Positions 3,685 to 61,906 of a DNA stretch of 64,000 nt are shown here, piece by piece (the stretch's first letter is position 1; each line of letters opens with the position of its first letter). The notes under the pieces are model-generated. The model saw only the letters and a program-made list of their open reading frames with translations, was not told the origin of the DNA and ran no database searches. The position numbers and the translations under genes were made by a program. Source of the stretch: Kofleriaceae bacterium (GTDB taxonomy: Bacteria; Myxococcota_A; Polyangia; Haliangiales; Haliangiaceae); the NCBI GenBank assembly GCA_018057825.1, contig JAGPCY010000012.1, positions 124,001-188,000 of the forward strand, in the 5' to 3' direction.

Positions 3685-4160
<476 letters not shown>

Positions 4161-17040: not shown

Positions 17041-17280
17041 GGAGACGGAGACGGAGACGGAGGCCGAGGCGGAGGCGGAGGCGGAGGCGGAGGCCGAGGC
17101 GGAGACCGAGGCGGAGGCGGAGGCGGAGGCCGAGACCGAGACCGAGACCGAGGCCGAGACCGAGGCCGAGACCGAGGCCGAGGCCGAGGCGGAGACCGAG
17201 GCGGAGGCGGAGGCCGAGTCCGAGACCGAGACCGAGGCCGAGGCCGAGGCCGAGGCCGAGGCCGAGACCGAGACCGAGAT
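17041..17280 (+). repeat. Hexamer tract 2 (GAGNCC), directly behind GST gene
   Basis: 240 bp of GAGGCG, GAGGCC and GAGACC units beginning at the base after the GST stop codon. The GAG-rich strand is the plus strand, the sense strand of the GST gene. Here GCG variants are common, more than in the other tracts. Confidence 0.95.
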
Positions 17281-18179: not shown

Positions 18180-18598
<419 letters not shown>

Positions 18599-18600
18599 GG

Positions 18601-19568
18601 CTACCGGTCGGTCGGGTCGCGGCCGACGTACTGCCAGCCGAACCGACCCTTGACGCACAGGTTGCCCTCGGTGACCGAGGACTCGAGCGGCGAGGTCACC
18701 TTGACCACCTGGTCGTCCTGGGTGTGCAAGGTGATCGCGCAGCCGACGCCGCAGTACGGGCACACCGTCGTGGTCTGCCGCTGCCGCGACTCGTCCCACT
18801 GCCCGGCCTCGCGCAGGTCGTGCTCGCGCGTGAAGACCAAGGCGCCGGTCGGGCAGGCGTTGACGCAGTTGCCGCAGAACACGCACGCCGAGTCGGGCAG
18901 CGCGACATCGAGCTCGGTCGAGATCCGCGCCTCGAAGCCGCGGCCGGCGACCGCGATCGCGAAGCTGTTCTGGGCGTCGGCGCCGCACGCCTCGACGCAC
19001 TTGTAGCAGAGCAGACACTTGCCGTAGTCGCGGACGAACAGCGGATTGTCGCGCTTGGCCGGCTGCGCGACCGTGGCCGCGGTGGCGCCGTCGCTGGCGT
19101 GGTGGTGCCCGGGCTCGGCGCGATCGCGGGCCCCGGCGGCGGCCGGCGGGGCCGGCGGACCGAACCGCTCGGGGGCGGCGCCGTAGGCCGCCATCCACGT
19201 CGCGATGTTCGGCGTCGCCGACAGGTCGACCGACGAGCCGAGCAGCTCGAGCACCAGCTTGCGCGCGGTGCGGACCCGCGGCGAGTCGGTGTGGATCACC
19301 ATGCCGGCCTCGGCCTTGCGCGAGCACGCCGGGATGAGCGTGCGCGCGCCGTCGAGCTCGACCACGCAGATCCGGCACACGTTGACCGGCGTCAGGTTGC
19401 GGGCGAAGCACAGGGTCGGGGTGGTGACGCCGACCGCGGCGCAGGCGTCGAGGACAGACGCGCCCTCGGGCACGGTGGCGGGCTGTCCGTCGACGGTGAC
19501 GGTGACGTCGCGACGCGGGCCATCAAGGGGGCGGCGGCCACGCTCGGCGGGATAGATCGGCAGGCGGA

Positions 19569-19572
<4 letters not shown>
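18601..19572 (-). CDS. Formate dehydrogenase N-terminal Fe-S subunit (separate gene)
   Basis: A 323-residue iron-sulfur protein that carries electrons between the molybdenum/tungsten site and the diaphorase. Visible centres: a NuoG-type [2Fe-2S] (Cys55, 66, 69, 83); two 4Cys ferredoxin clusters (Cys186/189/192/196 and Cys230/233/236/240, the latter CVFCGNCVNACP); and the proximal [4Fe-4S] motif CPYCGVGC (271-278) with Cys306. This last centre is normally part of the catalytic chain. The protein ends at VGRDPTDR, just where a normal alpha chain would continue into the molybdopterin domain. That remainder is the separate gene at 21408-23321. The ATG overlaps the upstream stop (ATGA), so it is the third gene of the operon. 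Confidence 0.9.
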
Positions 19573-21395
<1,823 letters not shown>

Positions 21396-21407: not shown

Positions 21408-23321
21408 TCAGGGCCGGCGATCGATCCGGATCGCCGCGGCCTTGAACTCGGCGGTGCCCGAGCGCGGATCGTGGGCGTCGATCGTCAGGAGGTTGGTGTC
21501 GACCTCGTCGGGGAAGTGGAAGGTCATGAAGGCCAGCCCGGGCCGCAGGCCAGGGTCGACCCGGACCGGGGCCAAGACCGCGCCGCGCCGCGACGACACC
21601 CGAACGACCTCGCCGTCGGTCACGCCGTAGCGGACGGCGTCGTCGGGGGCCAGATCGATCGACTCGCCGCGGCGCAGCGGCGAGGGGAAGCTGCCCGACT
21701 GCACGCCGGTGTTGAACGAGTCGAGCCGGCGCCCGGTGGTGAGGCGCAGCGGGAACTCAGCGTCGAGGGGATCGACCGGCTCGGCGTGATCGACCACCGA
21801 GAACGGCGCCGCCGGTCCTTCGCGGGGCTCGGCCCACAACCGGCCGTGGAGGAACGGCGAGCCCGGATGATCCTCGTCGGGACACGGCCACTGGATCCCG
21901 CCGGTGGCGTCGAGTCGGGCGTAGCTCATGCCGCCGTGCATCGGCGACAGCGCCCGCAGCTCGTCCCACAGCGCGCCCGGGGTGACGTCGCCCAGGTCGC
22001 GGCCCAGGCGGATCGATAGCGCGGCGATGATCTCGAGGTCGTCCCGGGCGCCGGCCGGCGGCGCGACCGCGCGGCGGACCCGCTGGACCCGGCGCTCGCT
22101 GTTGGTCACCGTGCCGTCGGACTCGGCGAACGACGCGCTCGCGGGCAGGACCACGTCGGCCAGCTCGGCGGTCGGGGTCAGGAACAGGTCCTGGACCACC
22201 AGGTGGTCGAGGCCCTCGAGGAGGCGAACCGTGCGGTGGCCGTCGGCCTCGGAGCGCGCCGGGTTCTCGCCGATGACGTAGAGCGCGCGCAGCTCGCGGC
22301 GGTCCATGGCGTGGAACATGTCGGTCAGGTGCCAGCCTGGCTCGGGCGGGATCGTGACGCCCCAGGCGCGCTCGAACCGGCCGCGCGCGATCGGATCCGC
22401 GACGTCCTGAAAGCCGGTGAGCTTGTGCGGCAGCGCGCCCATGTCGCCGCCGCCCTGGACGTTGTTCTGACCGCGCAGCGGGTTCAGACCGGCGCCCCAC
22501 CGCCCGACCTGACCGGTGAGGAGCGCCAGGTTGATGAGGGCCAGCACGTTGTCGACGGCGTTGGCGTGCTCGGTGATGCCCAGGGTCCAGCAGATCATCG
22601 CGCGATCGGCGCGGGCGTAGGCGTGGGCCATCGCGGTGATGTCGGCCGGCGCGACCCCGGTCAAGGCCGCCACGCGGTCGAGCGGATAGTGGGTGAGGAC
22701 GTGATCGCGGTAGGCCGCGAAGCCGGTGGTGGCGCGGGCGATGAAGGCGTGGTTCTCGAGCCCGGCGGTCAGGATCGCGTGGGCGACGCCGTTGGCCAAG
22801 GCGACGTCGGAGCCGACCGCCAGCGCCAGGTGGCGATCGGCCCAGGCCGCCGACGCGGTGTGGCGCGGATCGATCGCGAACAGGCGGGCGCCGCGGCGCA
22901 CGCCCTTCAGCACGTGGTGGAAGAAGATCGGGTGGGTCTCGCGCGCGTTCGAGCCCCACAAGAGGAGGACGTCGGTGTCCTCCGCCTCGCGGTACGAGCT
23001 GGTGCCGCCACCAGCCCCGAAGACCGTCGCCAGACCGACGACGCTAGGGGCGTGTCACGTTCGATTGCAGCTATCGATGTTGTTCGAGCCAATCGTGGCC
23101 CGCAGGAACTTCATCGCCAGGTAGTTGACCTCGTTGGTCGCCTTCGAACAGGAGAAGATGCCGACGCTCTTGGGGCCGTGGGCGGCGACCGCGGCGCCGA
23201 GGCCGGCGGCCGCGCGATCGAGGGCCTCGTCCCAGGTCGCCGGGCGCAGCGGACCGCGCCCGCCGTCGGCGAGGCGATCGCGGACCAGGGGCTGGGTCAG
23301 GCGAGGCAGAGCGGTGCGCAT
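21408..23321 (-). CDS. Selenocysteine-containing formate dehydrogenase catalytic subunit (TGA read as Sec)
   Basis: A 637-residue molybdopterin oxidoreductase, read through an in-frame TGA at 23057-23055 (Sec89). Before it: TWDEALDRAAAG, NEVNYLAMKFLR, NNIDSCNRT. After it: HAPSVVGLATVFGAGG, LLLWGSNARETHP. Sec followed by His in this setting is the formate-oxidising site of FdhF-type enzymes. The molybdopterin domains continue intact (NPLRGQNNVQGGGDMGALP, ALYVIGENPARSEAD, TGRRLDSFNTG) to the stop. The chain lacks the usual N-terminal CxxCxxxC cluster, which is carried by the third gene of the operon. The start ATG 23321 lies 6 nt after TACAGT. Without Sec the frame would be cut at 88 residues. 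A SECIS hairpin follows the TGA. Confidence 0.93.
23014..23057 (-). promoter_or_regulatory. Bacterial SECIS element with Sec codon
   Basis: Directly after UGA (23057-23055) the RNA folds into a 7-bp upper stem (23043-23037 with 23031-23025) closed by the loop GGUCU (23036-23032). A 5-bp lower stem (GCCCC with GGGGC; 23051-23047 with 23018-23014) lies below an internal loop. The loop begins 18 nt after the UGA, and its sequence and spacing match the E. coli fdhF SECIS as I know it. It would recruit SelB. No sel genes are in this window. Confidence 0.88.
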
Positions 23322-23406: not shown

Positions 23407-23449
23407 TGATTTTGACTTTCATGTTTTGGGACTTTGATTTCTATTTTCA
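23407..23449 (+). promoter_or_regulatory. Two Fur-like boxes in an AT-rich promoter
   Basis: Within a roughly 50-bp AT-rich island, two 15-bp elements with 7-1-7 symmetry, TGATTTTGACTTTCA (23407-23421) and TGATTTCTATTTTCA (23435-23449), agree with each other at 12 of 15 positions. Each agrees with the 7-1-7 Fur consensus at about 10 of 14. They sit immediately before the porin-imelysin-dihaem operon, which fits iron control. Confidence 0.55.
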
Positions 23450-23453
23450 TTTC

Positions 23454-24767
23454 ATGCAAGGTCCCTCCGTGGACCTCCCCGCCCGCCGCTCCGCCGCCGC
23501 GCTGTGCGTCGCGATCGCCACCGCGCCCGCGCTGGCCGCCGCCGACCCGCTGCCGACGACCCCTTTCACCCTCCACCTCGGCGGCTACGGCGAGCTCGGC
23601 GCGACCTTCTACACCTACGGCGCCAACCGCAACCGCGACGCCGGCGCCCAGCGCGATCTGCGCCTCGAGCTCGACGACACCCGCTTCGTCGCGATCCTGC
23701 AGGCGCGGACCCCGACCGGCTGGGAGCTCGAGGCCGAGGTCGAGATCGAGCACGGCGGCACCGGCGGCGCCCGCGAGATCGACTACGACGAGTTCGGCGA
23801 GTTCGAGACCGAGGTCGAGCAAGGCGGCGAGGTGATCCTCGAGGAGCTGTACCTGGAGAAGACCTTCGCTGGTCGCTACCAGGTGAAGCTCGGGCGCTTC
23901 TACGTCGCCCTCGGTCACCTGGCGAGCCGCTTCCGCCCGACCGACTACCTGTCGGCGACGCGCTCCGAGGTCGAGACCACGCTCCTGCCCGGGCAATGGG
24001 ACGAGCTCGGCGTGTCGTTCACCGCGTTCCTCGGCCGGGTCCGCGCCACCGGCCAGGTGGTCAACGGCCTCGACTCGACCGGGTTCTCCTCGGCGGGATG
24101 GATCGCGACCGGCCACCAGACCGCCTACGAGACCGTGCGCGCCACCTCGCCGGCGGCGATCGCGCGCATCGACGTGACGCCCGGGGCCGGGATCGAGGTC
24201 GGCGCCGCCGGCTACGTCGGCGGCTCGAGCGCCAACCGGCCCAAGCCCGATCTGGTGGTCGACTGCCCCGACGGCGATCCCGACGTGGTCGCGCCGTGCG
24301 GCTACGTGTCGGCGCCGGTCGCGATCGGCGAGGTCCACGGCGCGCTCGAGGTCGGCCGGCTGCGCGGCCAGGCCCTGGCGGTGGTCGGCTACCTCGGCAA
24401 CGCCGACGTGGTGACCGAGCGCAACCGCCGGTTGTCCAACGAGGCCGGGGTCGCGCGCACCCCGGTGGCGTCCCACGCCTACGGTCTGTCGATCGAGGCT
24501 GGCTACGACCTCGGCCCCACGCTCGGCCTGTGCCCGCAGCACGCCCTGGCGCCGTTCGTCCGCGTCGAGCGCTACGACACCATGTGGCGGACCCCCGACG
24601 GCGTGTTCGCCAACCCGCGCTACCAGCGCACGGTCGCCACCGCCGGCGCGGCGTTGACCCTCGACCGCCACCTGACCTTCAAGCTCGACGTCGCCCACCG
24701 CCGGTTCGGCAGCGACGCGCTGCGGCCGGAGACCGAGCTGCACGCGGTCGCCGGCTTCGTCTACTGA
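23454..24767 (+). CDS. Outer-membrane porin-like beta-barrel protein (iron operon)
   Basis: A 437-residue secreted protein. The signal peptide covers about the first 30 residues (SAAALCVAIATAPALAAA). The mature part alternates polar and hydrophobic residues with many Tyr/Phe/Gly and ends in Tyr (AVAGFVY), as barrel proteins do. Segments such as LHLGGYGELGATFYTY and KLGRFYVALGHLASRF look like porin strands. An acidic loop near residues 95-125 (DYDEFGEFETEVE) could bind cations. ATG 23454 is used, with GTG 23469 an alternative nearer the signal peptide. It is first in an operon with imelysin and a dihaem protein, so uptake or handling of iron at the outer membrane is inferred. Confidence 0.8.
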   Translation: MQGPSVDLPARRSAAALCVAIATAPALAAADPLPTTPFTLHLGGYGELGATFYTYGANRNRDAGAQRDLRLELDDTRFVAILQARTPTGWELEAEVEIEHGGTGGAREIDYDEFGEFETEVEQGGEVILEELYLEKTFAGRYQVKLGRFYVALGHLASRFRPTDYLSATRSEVETTLLPGQWDELGVSFTAFLGRVRATGQVVNGLDSTGFSSAGWIATGHQTAYETVRATSPAAIARIDVTPGAGIEVGAAGYVGGSSANRPKPDLVVDCPDGDPDVVAPCGYVSAPVAIGEVHGALEVGRLRGQALAVVGYLGNADVVTERNRRLSNEAGVARTPVASHAYGLSIEAGYDLGPTLGLCPQHALAPFVRVERYDTMWRTPDGVFANPRYQRTVATAGAALTLDRHLTFKLDVAHRRFGSDALRPETELHAVAGFVY

Positions 24768-24790
24768 CCCGCTTAGCCCCAGGAGCTCCG

Positions 24791-25855
24791 ATGTCGCGTC
24801 TCGCCCGCCCCGCCCTGTTCGTCACCTTGGCCGCCGGCCTCGCCGCCTGCGACGACGGTGGCTCGACCTCGACCGGCTTCACCGATCGCCAGGTCATCAC
24901 CGACTTTGCAGATCAAGTCGTGATCCCGACCTACGCGCTCCTGCACGATCGCGCGGTCGCCCTCGATCAGGCCGCCGCCGCCCTGCGCGCCTCGCCGAGC
25001 GCCGCGACCCTGACCGCGGCCCAGACCGCCTGGGTCTCGGCCCGGGTGCCGTGGGAGCAGAGCGAGGCGTTCCTGTTCGGGCCGGTGTCGGCCCAGGGCT
25101 ACGACCCGGCGATGGACTCGTGGCCGGTCGAACGCAACGACCTCGAGGCGGTGATCGCCGCGAGCGATCCGCTGACCGCGCAGTTCATCCGCAACCTGCC
25201 CGAGACCCAGAAGGGCTTCCACACCATCGAGTACCTGGTGTTCGGCGAGGGCCGGAGTCGGACCTTCGCCGAGCTGTCGGCCCGCGAGCTCGAGTACCTG
25301 ACCGGCCTCACCGCCGAGCTGGCCAGCGTCACCGACGCCCTCGAGCAGGCCTGGACCACCGGCGCGCCGTCGTACCGCGAGGTGTTCGTGACCGCGGGCC
25401 AGGCCGGCAACACCGCCTACCCGGCCCTCGAGGCCGCGGCCCAGGAGATCCTGGTCGGCATGAGCGGCATCTGCGACGAGGTGGCCAACGGCAAGATCGC
25501 CGACCCCTACGACGCCCACGATCCCAACCTGGTCGAGAGCCAGTTCTCGTGGAACTCGCTCGATGACTTCGCCGACAACCTGCGCGCGGTCGAGCACGCC
25601 TACACCGGCGACGTCGCGACCGCCGGCACCACCGGCCGCGGCCTCGACGAGCTGGTCCGGGCCGTCGACCCGGCCCTCGACACCCGCTTCCGCGCCGAGC
25701 TCGCCGCGGCCCTCGCCGCGATCGCCGCCATCCCGGCGCCGTTTCGCACCGCGATCACCACGCCGTCGGCCTACCCGGCGATCGAGGCCGCCCAGGCGGC
25801 GATCCGCACGGTCCAGGCCACGATCGACGGCGAGCTGACCAGCGTGCTCCTGTGA
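24791..25855 (+). CDS. Imelysin-family lipoprotein (iron-regulated)
   Basis: A 354-residue lipoprotein (lipobox near LAAGLAAC). The imelysin (peptidase M75-like) fold has two helical bundles. The signature GFHTIEYLVFG, matching the GxHxIEY motif, is present near residue 142. Despite the name, family members act in iron uptake (IrpA, EfeO-like) rather than as proven peptidases. A good AGGAG precedes ATG 24791. The stop overlaps the GTG of the dihaem protein, so the two are translationally coupled. Pairing of imelysin with this dihaem family is recurrent in bacteria. Confidence 0.9.
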   Translation: MSRLARPALFVTLAAGLAACDDGGSTSTGFTDRQVITDFADQVVIPTYALLHDRAVALDQAAAALRASPSAATLTAAQTAWVSARVPWEQSEAFLFGPVSAQGYDPAMDSWPVERNDLEAVIAASDPLTAQFIRNLPETQKGFHTIEYLVFGEGRSRTFAELSARELEYLTGLTAELASVTDALEQAWTTGAPSYREVFVTAGQAGNTAYPALEAAAQEILVGMSGICDEVANGKIADPYDAHDPNLVESQFSWNSLDDFADNLRAVEHAYTGDVATAGTTGRGLDELVRAVDPALDTRFRAELAAALAAIAAIPAPFRTAITTPSAYPAIEAAQAAIRTVQATIDGELTSVLL

Positions 25856-27135
25856 GGCGCGCGGTCGTCGCGGTGGCGCTGGTGGCCTGCACCGACGCCG
25901 CACCGATCCGCCCCGGCGGTGACACCACCGTCGATGATCGGACGTCCAACGCCTTCTCGTTGCCGGCCGCGAACCTGACCGCGGCCGCGCTCGCCGAGCA
26001 CCAGAGCGGCGACGTCGGCTTCGAGGCGGTGTTCGTGCGTGGTCCAGCCCCGATCAACCCCGGGCTCGGCCCGCTGTACAACCACAACGCCTGCGCCGCC
26101 TGCCACAACCGCGACGGCCGCGGCCTGCCCAGCTTCGCCGCCCCGGGGTCCCAGGCGCTGGTGCGCATCAGCGTGTCCGACGGCACGCCGCCGGTGCCTG
26201 GCGCGCCGGTGCCAGTGCCCGGGCTGGGCGGCCAGCTCCAGGACCACGGCGTGTTCGGCGTCGAGCCCGAGGTGACGATCGCGCTGTCGTGGCGCGAGGT
26301 CCCGGGCGCCTACGGCGACGGTGAGCCGTACCTCCTGCGGGCGCCCGCGGTGACGCTGACCCGCGCCGACGGCACCGCGTTGCCGCCGACGATCCTGACC
26401 TCGCTGCGCCAGGCGCCGGCGGTGTTTGGCCTGGGGCTCCTCGAGGCCATCCCCGACGATGCGCTGGTCGCCGCCGAGGATCCCGACGACCGCGACGGCG
26501 ACGGCGTGTCGGGCCGCGCCAACCGGGTGTGGGACGTCGACGCAGGCGCGGTCCGACTCGGCCGCTTCGGCCACAAGGCCGGACAGCCGAGCCTGGTGCA
26601 GCAGGCCGCCGCCGCCTACGCCAACGACATGGGCGTGACCAGCCGGCGCTTCGACGGCGAGGTCGAGGTCGCCGATGAGACGATCGCCGCGACGGCGTTC
26701 TACACCGCGACCCTCGGGGTGCCGGCCCGGGCGCCCGGTGACGTCGCCGCCGGCGAGGCGCGCTTCGCCGACTTCGGCTGCGCCGCATGCCACACGCCGG
26801 TGCAGCACACGGGCGATCATCCCGCGCCCGCGGTGGCCGATCAGACCTTCGCGCCGTACACCGACCTCTTGCTCCACGATCTGGGCGACGGCCTGGCCGA
26901 CGGCCGCCCCGAGTTCGCCGCCGATGGCCGCGAGTGGCGGACCCCGCCGCTGTGGGGCCTGGGCCTGGTCCAGACCGTCCTGCCGGGCGCGAGCTACCTG
27001 CACGATGGACGCGCGCGCACCGTCGCTGAGGCCATCCTGTGGCACGGCGGCGAGGCCGAGGCCGCGCGCGAGCGGTTCCGGACCGCGCCCGCGCGCGATC
27101 GCCGCGCGCTCCTGGCGTTCCTGTCGGCGCTGTGA
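25852..27135 (+). CDS. Dihaem c-type oxidoreductase (DUF1111 family)
   Basis: A 427-residue exported protein with two haem-binding CxxCH motifs (CAACH at residues 81-85 and 310-314). The second lies in a typical cytochrome c fold (GEARFADFGCAACH), and both resemble bacterial dihaem peroxidase-like proteins of DUF1111. EF-hand-like DRDGDGVSGRANRV near 215 is a common calcium loop in this family. GTG 25852 overlaps the imelysin stop (GTGA). The N-terminus is short but hydrophobic (AVVAVALVAC) and looks like a lipoprotein signal. Its probable job is periplasmic redox handling of iron next to imelysin. Confidence 0.9.
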   Translation: MRRAVVAVALVACTDAAPIRPGGDTTVDDRTSNAFSLPAANLTAAALAEHQSGDVGFEAVFVRGPAPINPGLGPLYNHNACAACHNRDGRGLPSFAAPGSQALVRISVSDGTPPVPGAPVPVPGLGGQLQDHGVFGVEPEVTIALSWREVPGAYGDGEPYLLRAPAVTLTRADGTALPPTILTSLRQAPAVFGLGLLEAIPDDALVAAEDPDDRDGDGVSGRANRVWDVDAGAVRLGRFGHKAGQPSLVQQAAAAYANDMGVTSRRFDGEVEVADETIAATAFYTATLGVPARAPGDVAAGEARFADFGCAACHTPVQHTGDHPAPAVADQTFAPYTDLLLHDLGDGLADGRPEFAADGREWRTPPLWGLGLVQTVLPGASYLHDGRARTVAEAILWHGGEAEAARERFRTAPARDRRALLAFLSAL

Positions 27136-35329: not shown

Positions 35330-35530
35330 GGAGGAGGAGGCGGAGGCGGAGACCGAGTCCGAACCCGAGACCGAGACCGAGGCCGAGACCGAGGCCGAGT
35401 CCGAACCCGAGTCCGAACCCGAACCCGAACCCGAACCGGAACCCGAACCCGAGGCCGAACCCGAGTCCGAGGCCGAGACCGAGACCGAACCCGAGTCCGA
35501 GTCCGAGGTCGAGGCGGAGGCCGGGATCGA
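35330..35530 (+). repeat. Hexamer tract 4 (GAGNCC), behind tsaE
   Basis: About 200 bp of GAGACC, GAGGCC, GAGTCC and many GAACCC units. The GAG-rich strand is plus, the sense strand of tsaE. It fills the gap to the convergent lipoprotein gene. GAACCC units are more frequent here than in tracts 1-3. Confidence 0.93.
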
Positions 35531-39002: not shown

Positions 39003-39252
39003 TCGGGTTCGGGTTCGGGTTCGGGTTCGGGTTCGGGTTCGGGTTCGGGTTCGGGTTCGGGTTCGGACTCGTCTCGGACTCGGACTCGGACTCGGACTCG
39101 GACTCGGGTTCGGCCTCGGTCTCGGCCTCGGACTCGGACTCGGTCTCGGGTTCGGTCTCGGTCTCGGTCTCGGCCTCGGTCTCGGTCTCGGCCTCGGTCT
39201 CGGACTCGGTCTCGGGTTCGGCCTCGGCCTCTGACTCGGTCTCGGCCTCACC
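39003..39252 (-). repeat. Hexamer tract 5 (GAGNCC on minus strand), behind ygiQ, with G-rich GGGTTC array
   Basis: About 250 bp. From 39003 to 39062 it is an almost perfect run of ten GGGTTC units, like telomeric repeats. Then come CTCGGA, CTCGGC and CTCGGT units. The GAG-rich strand is the minus strand, the sense strand of ygiQ, which stops 20 nt to the right. It lies between the convergent luxC and ygiQ genes. Confidence 0.94.
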
Positions 39253-47078: not shown

Positions 47079-48362
47079 ATGCGCCGCCTGCCCTTCGCCC
47101 TGGCCGCCGCCCTGGCCGCCTGCTCGTTCAACCCGACCGGCTCGGGTGGACCGGTCGACGCCGCGGTGGTCGACGGCCCGGTCGACGCCCCCGACGCCGG
47201 GATCGACGCGTGTGTCCCCGCACCGGGTGGCGAGCGGTGCAACGGCGTCGACGACGACTGCGACGGCGACGTCGACGAGGACTTCCCGACCCTGGGCGAC
47301 GCCTGCGACGGCGCCGACCTCGACCAGTGCGCCGACGACGTGGTGGTGTGCGCCGGCGACGGCACCGGCCCGACCTGCGGCGGCGCCAACCCCGACGACG
47401 ATCTCGAGCGGTGTAACGCCGGCGACGACGACTGCGACGGCGCCACCGACGAGGGCTTCGTCGGCCTGGGCACCGCCTGCGACGGCGCCGACGTCGATCA
47501 GTGTCCCGAGGGCACGGTCGCCTGCACGCCCGACGGCACGGCGACCGCGTGCTCCGACGCCACCGGCGACAGCGTCGAGGTGTGCAACGGCGGCGACGAC
47601 GACTGCGACGGCACGCCCGACGATGGCTTCATGCTCGGGGTCACCTGCGACGGCCCCGACACCGATCAGTGCCCCGAGGGCCAGGTGGTGTGCGACGGCG
47701 GCGGCGGCACGACCTGCTCGGACGCCACCGGCAACAACCTCGAAGCCTGCGACGCGCTCGACAACGACTGCGACGGCTCCACCGACGAGGGCTTCGACCT
47801 GACCAGCGACGTCGCCAACTGCGGCCAGTGTGGCCGCACCTGCCTGAACAGCCATGGCACGACCACCTGCGCCGCCAGCACCTGCGCGCCGACCTGCGCC
47901 GCCGGCGCCCGTGACTGCGACGGGGATCCGGTCGACGGCTGCGAGCTGTTCGACACCAACCCGCTGTGCACCGGCGCGCTCACCGATCTGGGCTTCGTCA
48001 ACGGCGACTCCGCCAGCACGCCGATCAGCCGCACCGGCAGCGGCGAGGCCCACTTCACGATCGCGGTCCGGGAGACCGTGTCGGGCGGCGGCGGCGACCT
48101 GCGCGCGGTCGTCACCCTGACCAGCGCCACCGGCACGAACTACGACCTCGACGTCCGGTGCTCCAGCTGCGGCGCCACGGCGGTGTCGTCGAACTCGGCG
48201 ACCGGCATCGACACCGTCACCGTCGAGCGCAACGACGCCATGGGCGTCAGCACCTACGACCTGATCATCAGCGTCCGCTGGACCGCCATGACCGCATGCG
48301 GCGACTGGACCCTGACCGTCGCGGGCAACCTCGGGACCGCCCCGCAGCTCGTGTGCCCGTAG
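47079..48362 (+). CDS. MopE-type Cys/Asp-repeat lipoprotein
   Basis: A 427-residue surface lipoprotein (lipobox LAAC). Five degenerate repeats (CNGVDDDCDGDVDE, CNAGDDDCDGATDEGF, and further copies) are the MopE metal-binding motif (PF11617). An unrelated Cys-rich part (TCAASTCAPTCAAGARDCDG) follows, then a C-terminal beta-sandwich domain of about 110 residues (SGSGEAHFTIAVRETVSGGGGDL) of the kind that ends many myxobacterial surface proteins. The Asp-rich loops would bind Ca2+ or other cations. ATG 47079 follows TAGCTT by 6 nt. Confidence 0.88.
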   Translation: MRRLPFALAAALAACSFNPTGSGGPVDAAVVDGPVDAPDAGIDACVPAPGGERCNGVDDDCDGDVDEDFPTLGDACDGADLDQCADDVVVCAGDGTGPTCGGANPDDDLERCNAGDDDCDGATDEGFVGLGTACDGADVDQCPEGTVACTPDGTATACSDATGDSVEVCNGGDDDCDGTPDDGFMLGVTCDGPDTDQCPEGQVVCDGGGGTTCSDATGNNLEACDALDNDCDGSTDEGFDLTSDVANCGQCGRTCLNSHGTTTCAASTCAPTCAAGARDCDGDPVDGCELFDTNPLCTGALTDLGFVNGDSASTPISRTGSGEAHFTIAVRETVSGGGGDLRAVVTLTSATGTNYDLDVRCSSCGATAVSSNSATGIDTVTVERNDAMGVSTYDLIISVRWTAMTACGDWTLTVAGNLGTAPQLVCP

Positions 48363-49362: not shown

Positions 49363-49527
49363 ACGGAGCATCCTGGTGAGTGGGATCCAGAGCACCGAAC
49401 GGTCTGCGTGCCGTCGCAGCAGGCATTCAAACCACTCGGTGCTCAGCGAGGTCCGGTGATGAACGCGCCGCCCGCCCGCCCGGTCTACCGCGGCCCTACG
49501 GCAGCACCGCCGTCACCGCGCCAGCGC
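49363..49527. other. Intergenic region without recognisable feature
   Basis: Part of the 593-nt gap between the lipoprotein at 48373 and the SPFH gene. I see no gene, hairpin or clear promoter here; the remainder of the gap is hexamer tract 6. Confidence 0.6.
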
Positions 49528-49938
49528 CTCGGACTCGGTCTCCGCCTCGGTCTCGGCCTCGGCCTCGGTCTCGGTCTCCGCCTCGGTCTCGGCCTCGGCC
49601 TCGGTCTCGGTCTCTGCCTCGGTCTCTGCCTCGGCCTCGGTCTCCGCCTCGGTCTCGGTCTCGGCCTCGGTCTCGGCCTCGGTCTCGGCCTCGGCCTCGG
49701 CCTCGGTCTCGGTCTCGGTCTCGGCCTCGGTCTCGGGTTCGGTTTCGGGTTCGGTCTCGGTCTCGGTCTCGGTCTCCGTCTCGGCCTCCGCCTCGGTCTC
49801 GGTCTCGGCCTCCGCCTCGGTCTCGGTCTCGGCCTCCGCCTCGGCCTCGGCCTCCGCCTCGGTCTCGGTCTCGGCCTCGGTCTCGGTCTCCGCCTCCGCC
49901 TCCGCCTCCGCCTCGGTCTCCGCCTCCGTCTCCGCCTC
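49528..49938 (-). repeat. Hexamer tract 6 (GAGNCC on minus strand), behind SPFH gene
   Basis: About 410 bp of CTCGGT, CTCGGC and CTCCGC/CTCCGT units (plus strand). The GAG-rich strand is minus, the sense strand of the SPFH gene that stops 17 nt to the right. Here tract and gene are in tandem with the next gene, not convergent, which shows that convergence is not required. Confidence 0.95.
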
Positions 49939-53763: not shown

Positions 53764-53811
53764 CCGCGCAGCCTATCACCGCCACCGGACCTTCACGCCA
53801 CCTCGGCCTCC

Positions 53812-54064
53812 GACTCCACCTCCACCTCCACCTCCACCTCGGCCTCGGACTCGGCCTCGGACTCGGCCTCGGTCTCGGCCTCGGACTCGGTCTCGGTCTC
53901 GGACTCGGTCTCGGCCTCGGACTCGGTCTCGGCCTCGGTCTCGGACTCGGTCTCGGGTTCGGGGTCGGGTTCGGGTTCGGGTTCGGGCTCGGGTTCGGGG
54001 TCGGGTTCGGGCTCGGGCTCGGGTTCGGGCTCCGGTTCTGCCTCCGCCTCGGCCTCCGCCTCGA
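53812..54064 (-). repeat. Hexamer tract 7 (GAGNCC on minus strand), behind TPR protein gene
   Basis: About 250 bp of CTCGGC, CTCGGA, CTCGGT and then GGGTTC, GGGCTC and GGGGTC units (plus strand). The GAG-rich strand is minus, the sense strand of the TPR-protein gene whose stop lies at 54270. A duplicated 80-bp block sits between that stop and the tract. Confidence 0.93.
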
Positions 54065-55915: not shown

Positions 55916-56992
55916 CTACCGCCCGGTGATGAAGAACTCGACCCGGCGGTTCTGGGCCCGGCCGTCCTTGGTGCGGTTGTCGGCGATCGGCACGCCCTCG
56001 CCGAAGCCCTGGGACTCCATCCGCGCCTCATCGATGCCGCGGGCGATCAGGTACTTCCGGACCGAGGCGGCCCGGTTCTTCGACAGCTTCAGGTTGAACT
56101 TGTCCGAGCCCTGGCTGTCGGTGTGGCCCTCGATGCGGACCGTGATCGTCGGGTTGTCGCGCAGCGCCTGGGCGACCTCGTCGAGCAGCGGGAAGCTGAC
56201 CCGCTTGATGGTGGCCTTGCGGGTGTCGAAGTAGACCGTCTGGGACAGCTCGATCTTGTCCTCGGTGACGGTGATCATCGTGTACTTCGGCGGACAGCCG
56301 TCGATCGTCTTGGCCGGCTCGGCCGGACACTGGTCGATGGCCTGCGGGCACTCGGGCACACCGTCGCCGTCGTTGTCGCAGTCGGGGCAGCCGTCGTCGT
56401 CGGCGAAGCCGTCGGCGTCCTCGGGCTCGTCGGGGCACTGGTCCACCCGGTCGGCGATGCCGTCGCCGTCGTTGTCGGGATCGGGGCAGCCGTCGGTGTC
56501 CTCGGTGCCGTCGCGATCCTCGGGGTCGAGGGGGCAGTCGTCGATCTTGTCGTTGATGCCGTCGGCGTCGTTGTCGTCCTCGGGGCAACCGTCGGTGTCC
56601 TCGAAGCCGTCCTTGTCCTCCGGCACCCGCGGGCAATCGTCGTCGGTGTCGAGGATGCCGTCCTTGTCGAAGTCGGCCGGCTTGGCCGGCTCGACCGGCG
56701 GCGCGTCGGCCGGGTTGCACAGATCCTTGGGCGACTTCTCGATCGCCCGCCGGGCGTTGTCCTCGGCGACCTCGGCCTCGCGCTTGGCCGGGAAGTACTG
56801 GCCCTGAGATAGCTGCTCCTTGGCGACGTCGTTGTGGACCTCGGCCAGGGCCAGCTCGACCGGGGCGCAGCGCAGCGCGCCGTTGTCGCGCGCGGTCTTG
56901 ATGAGCTGATCGATCGTGCGGGTCTGCGAGCGCACCTTGGCCCCGGCGCAGGCCGCGACCAGCGCCAGCGGCAGGAGCCAGCGCGCGGTCAC
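55916..56992 (-). CDS. OmpA-family lipoprotein with TSP3 calcium repeats
   Basis: A 358-residue outer-membrane lipoprotein (lipobox LVAAC). After a helical N-terminal part comes a run of thrombospondin type-3-like repeats (DFDKDGILDTDDDCP, DNDGDGIADRVDQCP) that bind Ca2+, and a C-terminal OmpA peptidoglycan-binding domain (TVYFDTRKATIKRV, IRVEGHTDSQGSD-type GHTDSQG, RAASVRKYLIARGI). The start is GTG 56992, overlapping the upstream stop (GTGA). It anchors outer membrane to cell wall. Its partner gene encodes a DUF4398-like lipoprotein. Confidence 0.93.
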   Translation of the reverse strand: MTARWLLPLALVAACAGAKVRSQTRTIDQLIKTARDNGALRCAPVELALAEVHNDVAKEQLSQGQYFPAKREAEVAEDNARRAIEKSPKDLCNPADAPPVEPAKPADFDKDGILDTDDDCPRVPEDKDGFEDTDGCPEDDNDADGINDKIDDCPLDPEDRDGTEDTDGCPDPDNDGDGIADRVDQCPDEPEDADGFADDDGCPDCDNDGDGVPECPQAIDQCPAEPAKTIDGCPPKYTMITVTEDKIELSQTVYFDTRKATIKRVSFPLLDEVAQALRDNPTITVRIEGHTDSQGSDKFNLKLSKNRAASVRKYLIARGIDEARMESQGFGEGVPIADNRTKDGRAQNRRVEFFITGR

Positions 56993-61685: not shown

Positions 61686-61890
61686 CGTGAAGGAGGAGGA
61701 GGAGGAGGAGACCGAGACCGAGGCGGAGGCTGAGTCCGAGACCGAGGCGGAGACCGAACCCGAACCCGAACCCGAACCCGAGACCGAGACCGAGTCCGAG
61801 ACCGAGGCCGAGTCCGAGACCGAGTCCGAGACCGAGTCCGAGTCCGAGTCCGAGTCCGAGGCCGAGACCGAGTCCGAGGCCGAGTCCGCG
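61686..61890 (+). repeat. Hexamer tract 8 (GAGNCC), behind apbE
   Basis: About 205 bp: a run of GAG, then GAGACC, GAGGCG, GAACCC and many GAGTCC units. The GAG-rich strand is plus, the sense strand of apbE. It fills the gap to the convergent small gene. Confidence 0.93.
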
Positions 61891-61906
61891 ACCCGAGGCG
61901 TCGGTA

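Follow-up and report, generated by a model that had tools for sequence, protein, structure and literature searches.

A predicted selenocysteine-containing formate dehydrogenase whose Fe4S4 domain is encoded in a separate gene

Among bacterial selenoproteins, selenocysteine (Sec)-containing formate dehydrogenase (FDH) is the most widespread (PMC1794560, PMC13188914). In the NAD-dependent FdsABGD enzyme of Rhodobacter capsulatus (PDB 6tg9), cryo-EM identified an electron path that runs Mo - A1 - A2 - A3 - A5 - B6 - FMN, whereas cluster A4, located at the dimer interface, is not on this path (PMC7171172). FdsA in this enzyme is a single, Cys-type chain. The alpha subunit of Methylorubrum extorquens FDH1 (PDB 7vw6) is likewise one chain, of 989 aa, and in E. 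coli FdhF (FDH-H), which is part of formate hydrogenlyase, the catalytic chain also includes the Fe4S4 domain. Division of a Mo/W-bisPGD catalytic unit over two polypeptides is known from formylmethanofuran dehydrogenase, FwdB/FwdD (PMC7331816), where the catalytic chain retains its N-terminal [4Fe-4S] domain and lacks the C-terminal one, which is separate.

Here we describe an FDH locus in a 64,000-nucleotide stretch of a Kofleriaceae genome (the window) in which the reverse part, the N-terminal Fe4S4 domain, is the separate one. In the other FDHs compared, the Mo/W-bisPGD centre and the first [4Fe-4S] cluster are on one chain. Relative to R. capsulatus, the locus is predicted to keep the same domains and the same chain of centres (Mo, A1, A2, A3, A5, B6, FMN), whereas FdsA is represented by two genes, the gene order is permuted and Sec takes the place of Cys.

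The catalytic gene and its in-frame UGA

The FDH catalytic subunit is encoded on the minus strand (21408..23321; 637 aa, with Sec at residue 89). Its ATG (23321), an internal TGA (23057-23055) and the stop TGA (21410-21408) all lie in one minus-strand frame, and codon 89 (23055..23057, minus strand), assigned to Sec from the sequence and from alignment to relatives, is the sole interruption of that frame, at the position of the FDH metal ligand. The initial annotation had described two open frames in the same phase, parted only by a TGA, that together contain an FDH active site with Sec at the stop. Both frames are real, although their ends had been placed up to 3 nt off because stop codons were counted in, and the active site is where it was said to be. 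The joined protein aligns to residues 60-686 of E. coli FdhF, with codon 89 on Sec140 and His90 directly after it. The U-H active-site pair (U89-H90) and the RGQ motif (R283-G284-Q285) are invariant among 21 sequences, in agreement with the C/U-H and RGQ motif classes of FDHs (PMC8808070). An AlphaFold model of the subunit (pLDDT 76) has E. coli FDH-H as its best Foldseek match (TM 0.81), and the catalytic part also closely matches the structure of M. extorquens FDH1.

Selenocysteine insertion: hairpin, machinery and relatives

Downstream of the UGA lies a bacterial SECIS upper stem-loop (23025..23043, minus strand), recognized by folding, codon resampling and comparison with fdhF. Its stem, CGUCGUC/GGCGACG, has seven contiguous base pairs and folds at -10.6 kcal/mol. 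The loop GGUCU (23036-23032) occupies nt 22-26, with the U of UGA as nt 1, so that 18 nt separate it from the UGA, and E. coli K-12 fdhF (NC_000913.3) likewise has GGTCT at nt 22. The hairpin had been reported in advance with this spacing, stem length and loop, all of which are present; its description as 'textbook' is apt for the loop and the spacing but not for the stem, since the upper stem of E. coli fdhF has one unpaired base on its 5' side that the window stem lacks.

Folding gives a z-score of -1.96, only mildly better than shuffled sequences. TGA-N18-GGTCT occurs twice in the window, with a stem in the SECIS copy alone (7 bp versus 0 in the other), and the motif with a stem of at least 6 bp was absent from all of 100 random sequences matched in dinucleotide composition. 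Because Rfam at gathering thresholds returned no match in the window, the SECIS was tested by pair counts and by synonymous-codon resampling, in which the protein is kept and the RNA randomized (75 distinct sequences, 2000 draws). The GGUCU loop is kept in 97% of the sequences, against 9% expected, and the seven stem pairs are formed at 96%, against 77% expected and a maximum of 83% over the 2000 draws; six of the seven pairs form in every sequence. At pair 18-30, G-C replaces C-G in two sequences (GTG for GTC at codon 5, GCC for GCG at codon 9), and at pair 20-28 U-G, C-G and U-A all occur while C-A never does. The Gly codon that matches the SECIS loop is mostly GGC in Cys-type relatives. Judged from these comparisons, conservation of the hairpin exceeds what the protein sequence demands, and the hairpin, with its compensatory changes, is under selection. 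Two Rokuibacteriota loci (L095 and L107) have the loop GGGCU in place of GGUCU, the sole departures among 85 relatives.

The assembly (8.9 Mb, 84 contigs) contains selA (524 bits), selD (305 bits), a tRNA-Sec with anticodon TCA (75.4 bits) and a full-length selB (276 bits) whose frame continues through the C-terminal region to its stop. The initial annotation had predicted that selA, selB, selC and selD would be found, as all four were, and had named two results that would count against it, a genome without sel genes and relatives without the TGA. Neither was seen: TGA stands at the Sec site in all 85 relatives above 60% identity, with Cys in none. Among 251 sampled Chloroflexota genomes, 29 carry the split FDH gene described below, and TGA is present in 27 of the 27 that cover the site. 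selA accompanies TGA-containing FDH genes in 18 of 18 related genomes, compared with 61 of 95 overall (P about 1e-4). In other groups it was found in 21 of the 22 split-FDH genomes sampled and was not found in the remaining one, a small assembly of 2.4 Mb.

Simple read-through would give an identical-looking frame, and the UGA could on that ground be a true stop in a decayed gene or be read as another residue by suppression. We regard this as extremely improbable in the face of the full Sec machinery, the TGA at the Sec site of selD, the constraint on the SECIS and the TGA at this codon in every relative. By the same comparative evidence the FDH gene is very probably that of a selenoprotein read through UGA, and we infer UGA-directed Sec insertion into the catalytic subunit. 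As Sec-containing FDHs are so widespread, the original claim was correct but ordinary. A second likely selenoprotein of this genome is encoded by selD (L010:293-1237, contig C18), which has an in-frame TGA at its Sec site (GGG-U-AAK).

A displaced Fe4S4 domain in a three-gene operon

By Pfam, the catalytic protein contains only the Molybdopterin (PF00384) and Molydop_binding (PF01568) domains, and the molybdopterin Fe4S4 domain, PF04879, is the C-terminal domain of the 19572-18601 gene product. The initial reading of the joined protein as an FDH stands on its alignment to FdhF, but it had overlooked that the N-terminal Fe4S4 domain is absent and is encoded two genes downstream. TIGR01591 is divided accordingly: the first gene matches positions 51-672 and the third gene positions 1-50. 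The catalytic protein alone does not cover the whole model and scores 590.9 bits, below the curated cut-off of 666.25. E. coli FdhF is apportioned in the same way, residues 2-52 aligning to the third-gene tail and the remainder, from residue 60, to the catalytic gene. R. capsulatus FdsA matches the first gene with residues 306-931 and the third with 24-303, and the FDH1 alpha subunit also matches both halves. PF04879 was found in 0 of 21 catalytic proteins and in 20 of 20 third-gene proteins. What is a single chain in FdsA is here two genes, with the break between the Fe4S4 and catalytic domains, while in unsplit FDHs of related genomes (35-46% identical) one frame holds the catalytic part and, upstream of it, the Fe4S4 domain. 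A missed upstream start that would restore this domain was considered and rejected, as only 26 open codons lie upstream and none of the 21 catalytic proteins has PF04879.

The second gene (19569..21395, minus strand) begins with GTG 12 nt after the catalytic gene and encodes a diaphorase subunit of 608 aa, a NuoE-NuoF fusion with a thioredoxin-like [2Fe-2S] domain, an FMN/NADH domain and a 4Fe-4S domain. The beta subunit of M. extorquens FDH1 is also a NuoE-NuoF fusion. With its FMN/NADH domain, this protein corresponds to the NuoE- and NuoF-like subunits of FdsABG. The third gene (18601..19572, minus strand) overlaps the second by ATGA and encodes a NuoG-N/HoxU-like electron-transfer subunit of 323 aa, the C-terminal end of which is the displaced domain (18625..18774, minus strand; residues 267-316, matching FdhF 2-52). 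The 12-nt gap and the ATGA overlap suggest that the three genes form one operon. The order catalytic subunit, NuoEF fusion, NuoG-N with Fe4S4 corresponds to fdsGBA cyclically permuted, the break falling within fdsA. fdhD is present in the genome and flanks the operon in some relatives, and formate-THF ligase adjoins it in several; such neighbours would be in line with formate metabolism.

The third subunit contains ligands for a [2Fe-2S] cluster (C55, C66, C69 and C83), a 4Fe-4S dicluster (C186-C196 and C230-C240) and the displaced Fe4S4 domain (C271, C274, C278 and C306), after which seven residues remain before the stop. The A1 ligands, the ferredoxin pair and the [2Fe-2S] ligands are invariant among 20 third-subunit sequences. 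By these ligand motifs, every centre of the FdsA-type path is present, with A1 on a different chain from the Mo/W centre. An AlphaFold model of this subunit is poor (pLDDT 52). In R. capsulatus, cluster A4, with its His/Cys ligands, lies at the FdsA dimer interface; here these His/Cys3 ligands, expected between the [2Fe-2S] and ferredoxin parts, are absent. The window protein is free of Cys from C83 to C186, and the 20 sequences share no invariant Cys in that interval. The motif is missing from several unsplit FDHs too, and A4 loss was therefore rejected as a trait specific to the split. A complex whose third subunit (18601-19572) lacks the A4 ligands may not form an FdsA-FdsA dimer of the R. 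capsulatus type.

Distribution of the split form and the proposed enzyme

Sixty-four loci hold third-gene parts beside a catalytic gene, and in 57 of the 58 loci with the end of the third gene present, it stops 7-32 residues past the CxKGR motif. Gene order is kept in most loci, with extra sequence between the parts in a few (L097, L102 and L106). These observations bear on whether this is an ordinary Sec FDH in which a recent rearrangement in this strain, possibly aided by a minisatellite, interrupted fdsA and left a split without function. A hexanucleotide array (18183-18595) does begin 5 bp past the third-gene stop, and further arrays of this kind are dispersed over the window. About 60 loci from several phyla, however, share the split point and the gene order, at 65-80% identity and with all path-cluster ligands kept. 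The conserved loci refute a strain-specific break by the minisatellite, and a functionless split appears very improbable to us.

Maximum-likelihood analysis places the split FDHs in a single clade, with support 100/100 and a long branch; every member of this clade that covers the site has TGA there. Members from Myxococcota, Planctomycetota, Chloroflexota, Actinomycetota and Acidobacteriota, soil and water bacteria, intermix in the tree. This intermixing, in a set made up mostly of metagenome bins, suggests transfer of the split FDH; the sequences themselves are more certain than the phyla of their hosts, since almost all of the relatives come from metagenome-assembled genomes. No Cys form of the split FDH was found among the relatives compared. 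We consider it likely that these genes represent a previously undescribed and widely exchanged family of Sec FDHs, with the cluster supplied in trans, that arose by one cyclic permutation of fdsGBA and has been committed to Sec since. The permuted order could plausibly have arisen from a tandem duplication of fdsGBA followed by loss of both ends.

We propose that the three co-oriented genes encode a cytoplasmic, soluble, NAD(P)-linked Sec FDH in which the Mo/W-proximal cluster is supplied in trans, a reading that we consider very probable. SelB and tRNA-Sec, acting at the downstream hairpin, would decode UGA 89 as selenocysteine. Sec89, His90 and the RGQ motif would hold a bis-MGD centre with Mo or W, at which formate would be converted to CO2. 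Electrons would then pass from Mo/W through A1, A2, A3 and A5 in subunit 3 to the 4Fe-4S cluster, FMN and NAD+ in subunit 2. As the A1 domain is located at the C-terminal end of subunit 3, docking of the subunits should be required to connect the active site to this path.

The split enzyme may instead be real but serve mainly as a CO2 reductase for one-carbon metabolism, or pass its electrons to an acceptor other than NAD, such as ferredoxin. The formate-THF ligase beside the operon in several relatives and the resemblance of subunit 3 to subunits of bifurcating and NADH-dependent hydrogenases both fit such a role. We think it unlikely, though a good deal less so than the alternatives considered above, as the NuoF-like subunit keeps its FMN/NADH domain, and the solved structures that subunit 3 matches most closely are NAD-linked FDHs, which are also among the close matches of the catalytic subunit. 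An NAD-linked enzyme that oxidizes formate is the reading we favour.

The split form is not described in the open-access PMC full text searched, which included papers on FDHs and selenoproteins, and may have been described elsewhere. Several features make the operon easy to overlook: the UGA cuts the catalytic gene, the score falls below the FDH cut-off with 50 model positions elsewhere, and the missing piece sits in a hydrogenase-like protein. Should the split form be as common as sampled (29 of 251 Chloroflexota genomes), present counts probably underestimate how many uncultured bacteria of soil and water use formate and depend on selenium. A natural split at this joint would make electron transfer and cofactor assembly testable with separate, mixed or mutated subunits, and the split FDH might be of use as a scaffold for enzymes that reduce CO2.

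Other features of the window were also observed. Divergent from the operon, at 23445-27135 (plus strand), genes for outer-membrane porin-like, imelysin-like and di-haem/thiol-oxidoreductase-like proteins, identified by eye, stand in a row that resembles a metal-uptake cluster. Hexanucleotide arrays of one theme (CCGAGA/CCGAGG as read on the plus strand, or the complement) are dispersed over the window; at least eight, of 150-410 bp each, lie at 3718-4063, 17060-17278, 18183-18595, 35343-35523, 39003-39249, 49526-49932, 53801-54063 and 61708-61893. Tandem repeats of 174 bp (47237-47795) and 99 bp (56361-56662) possibly encode Asp-rich repeat proteins.
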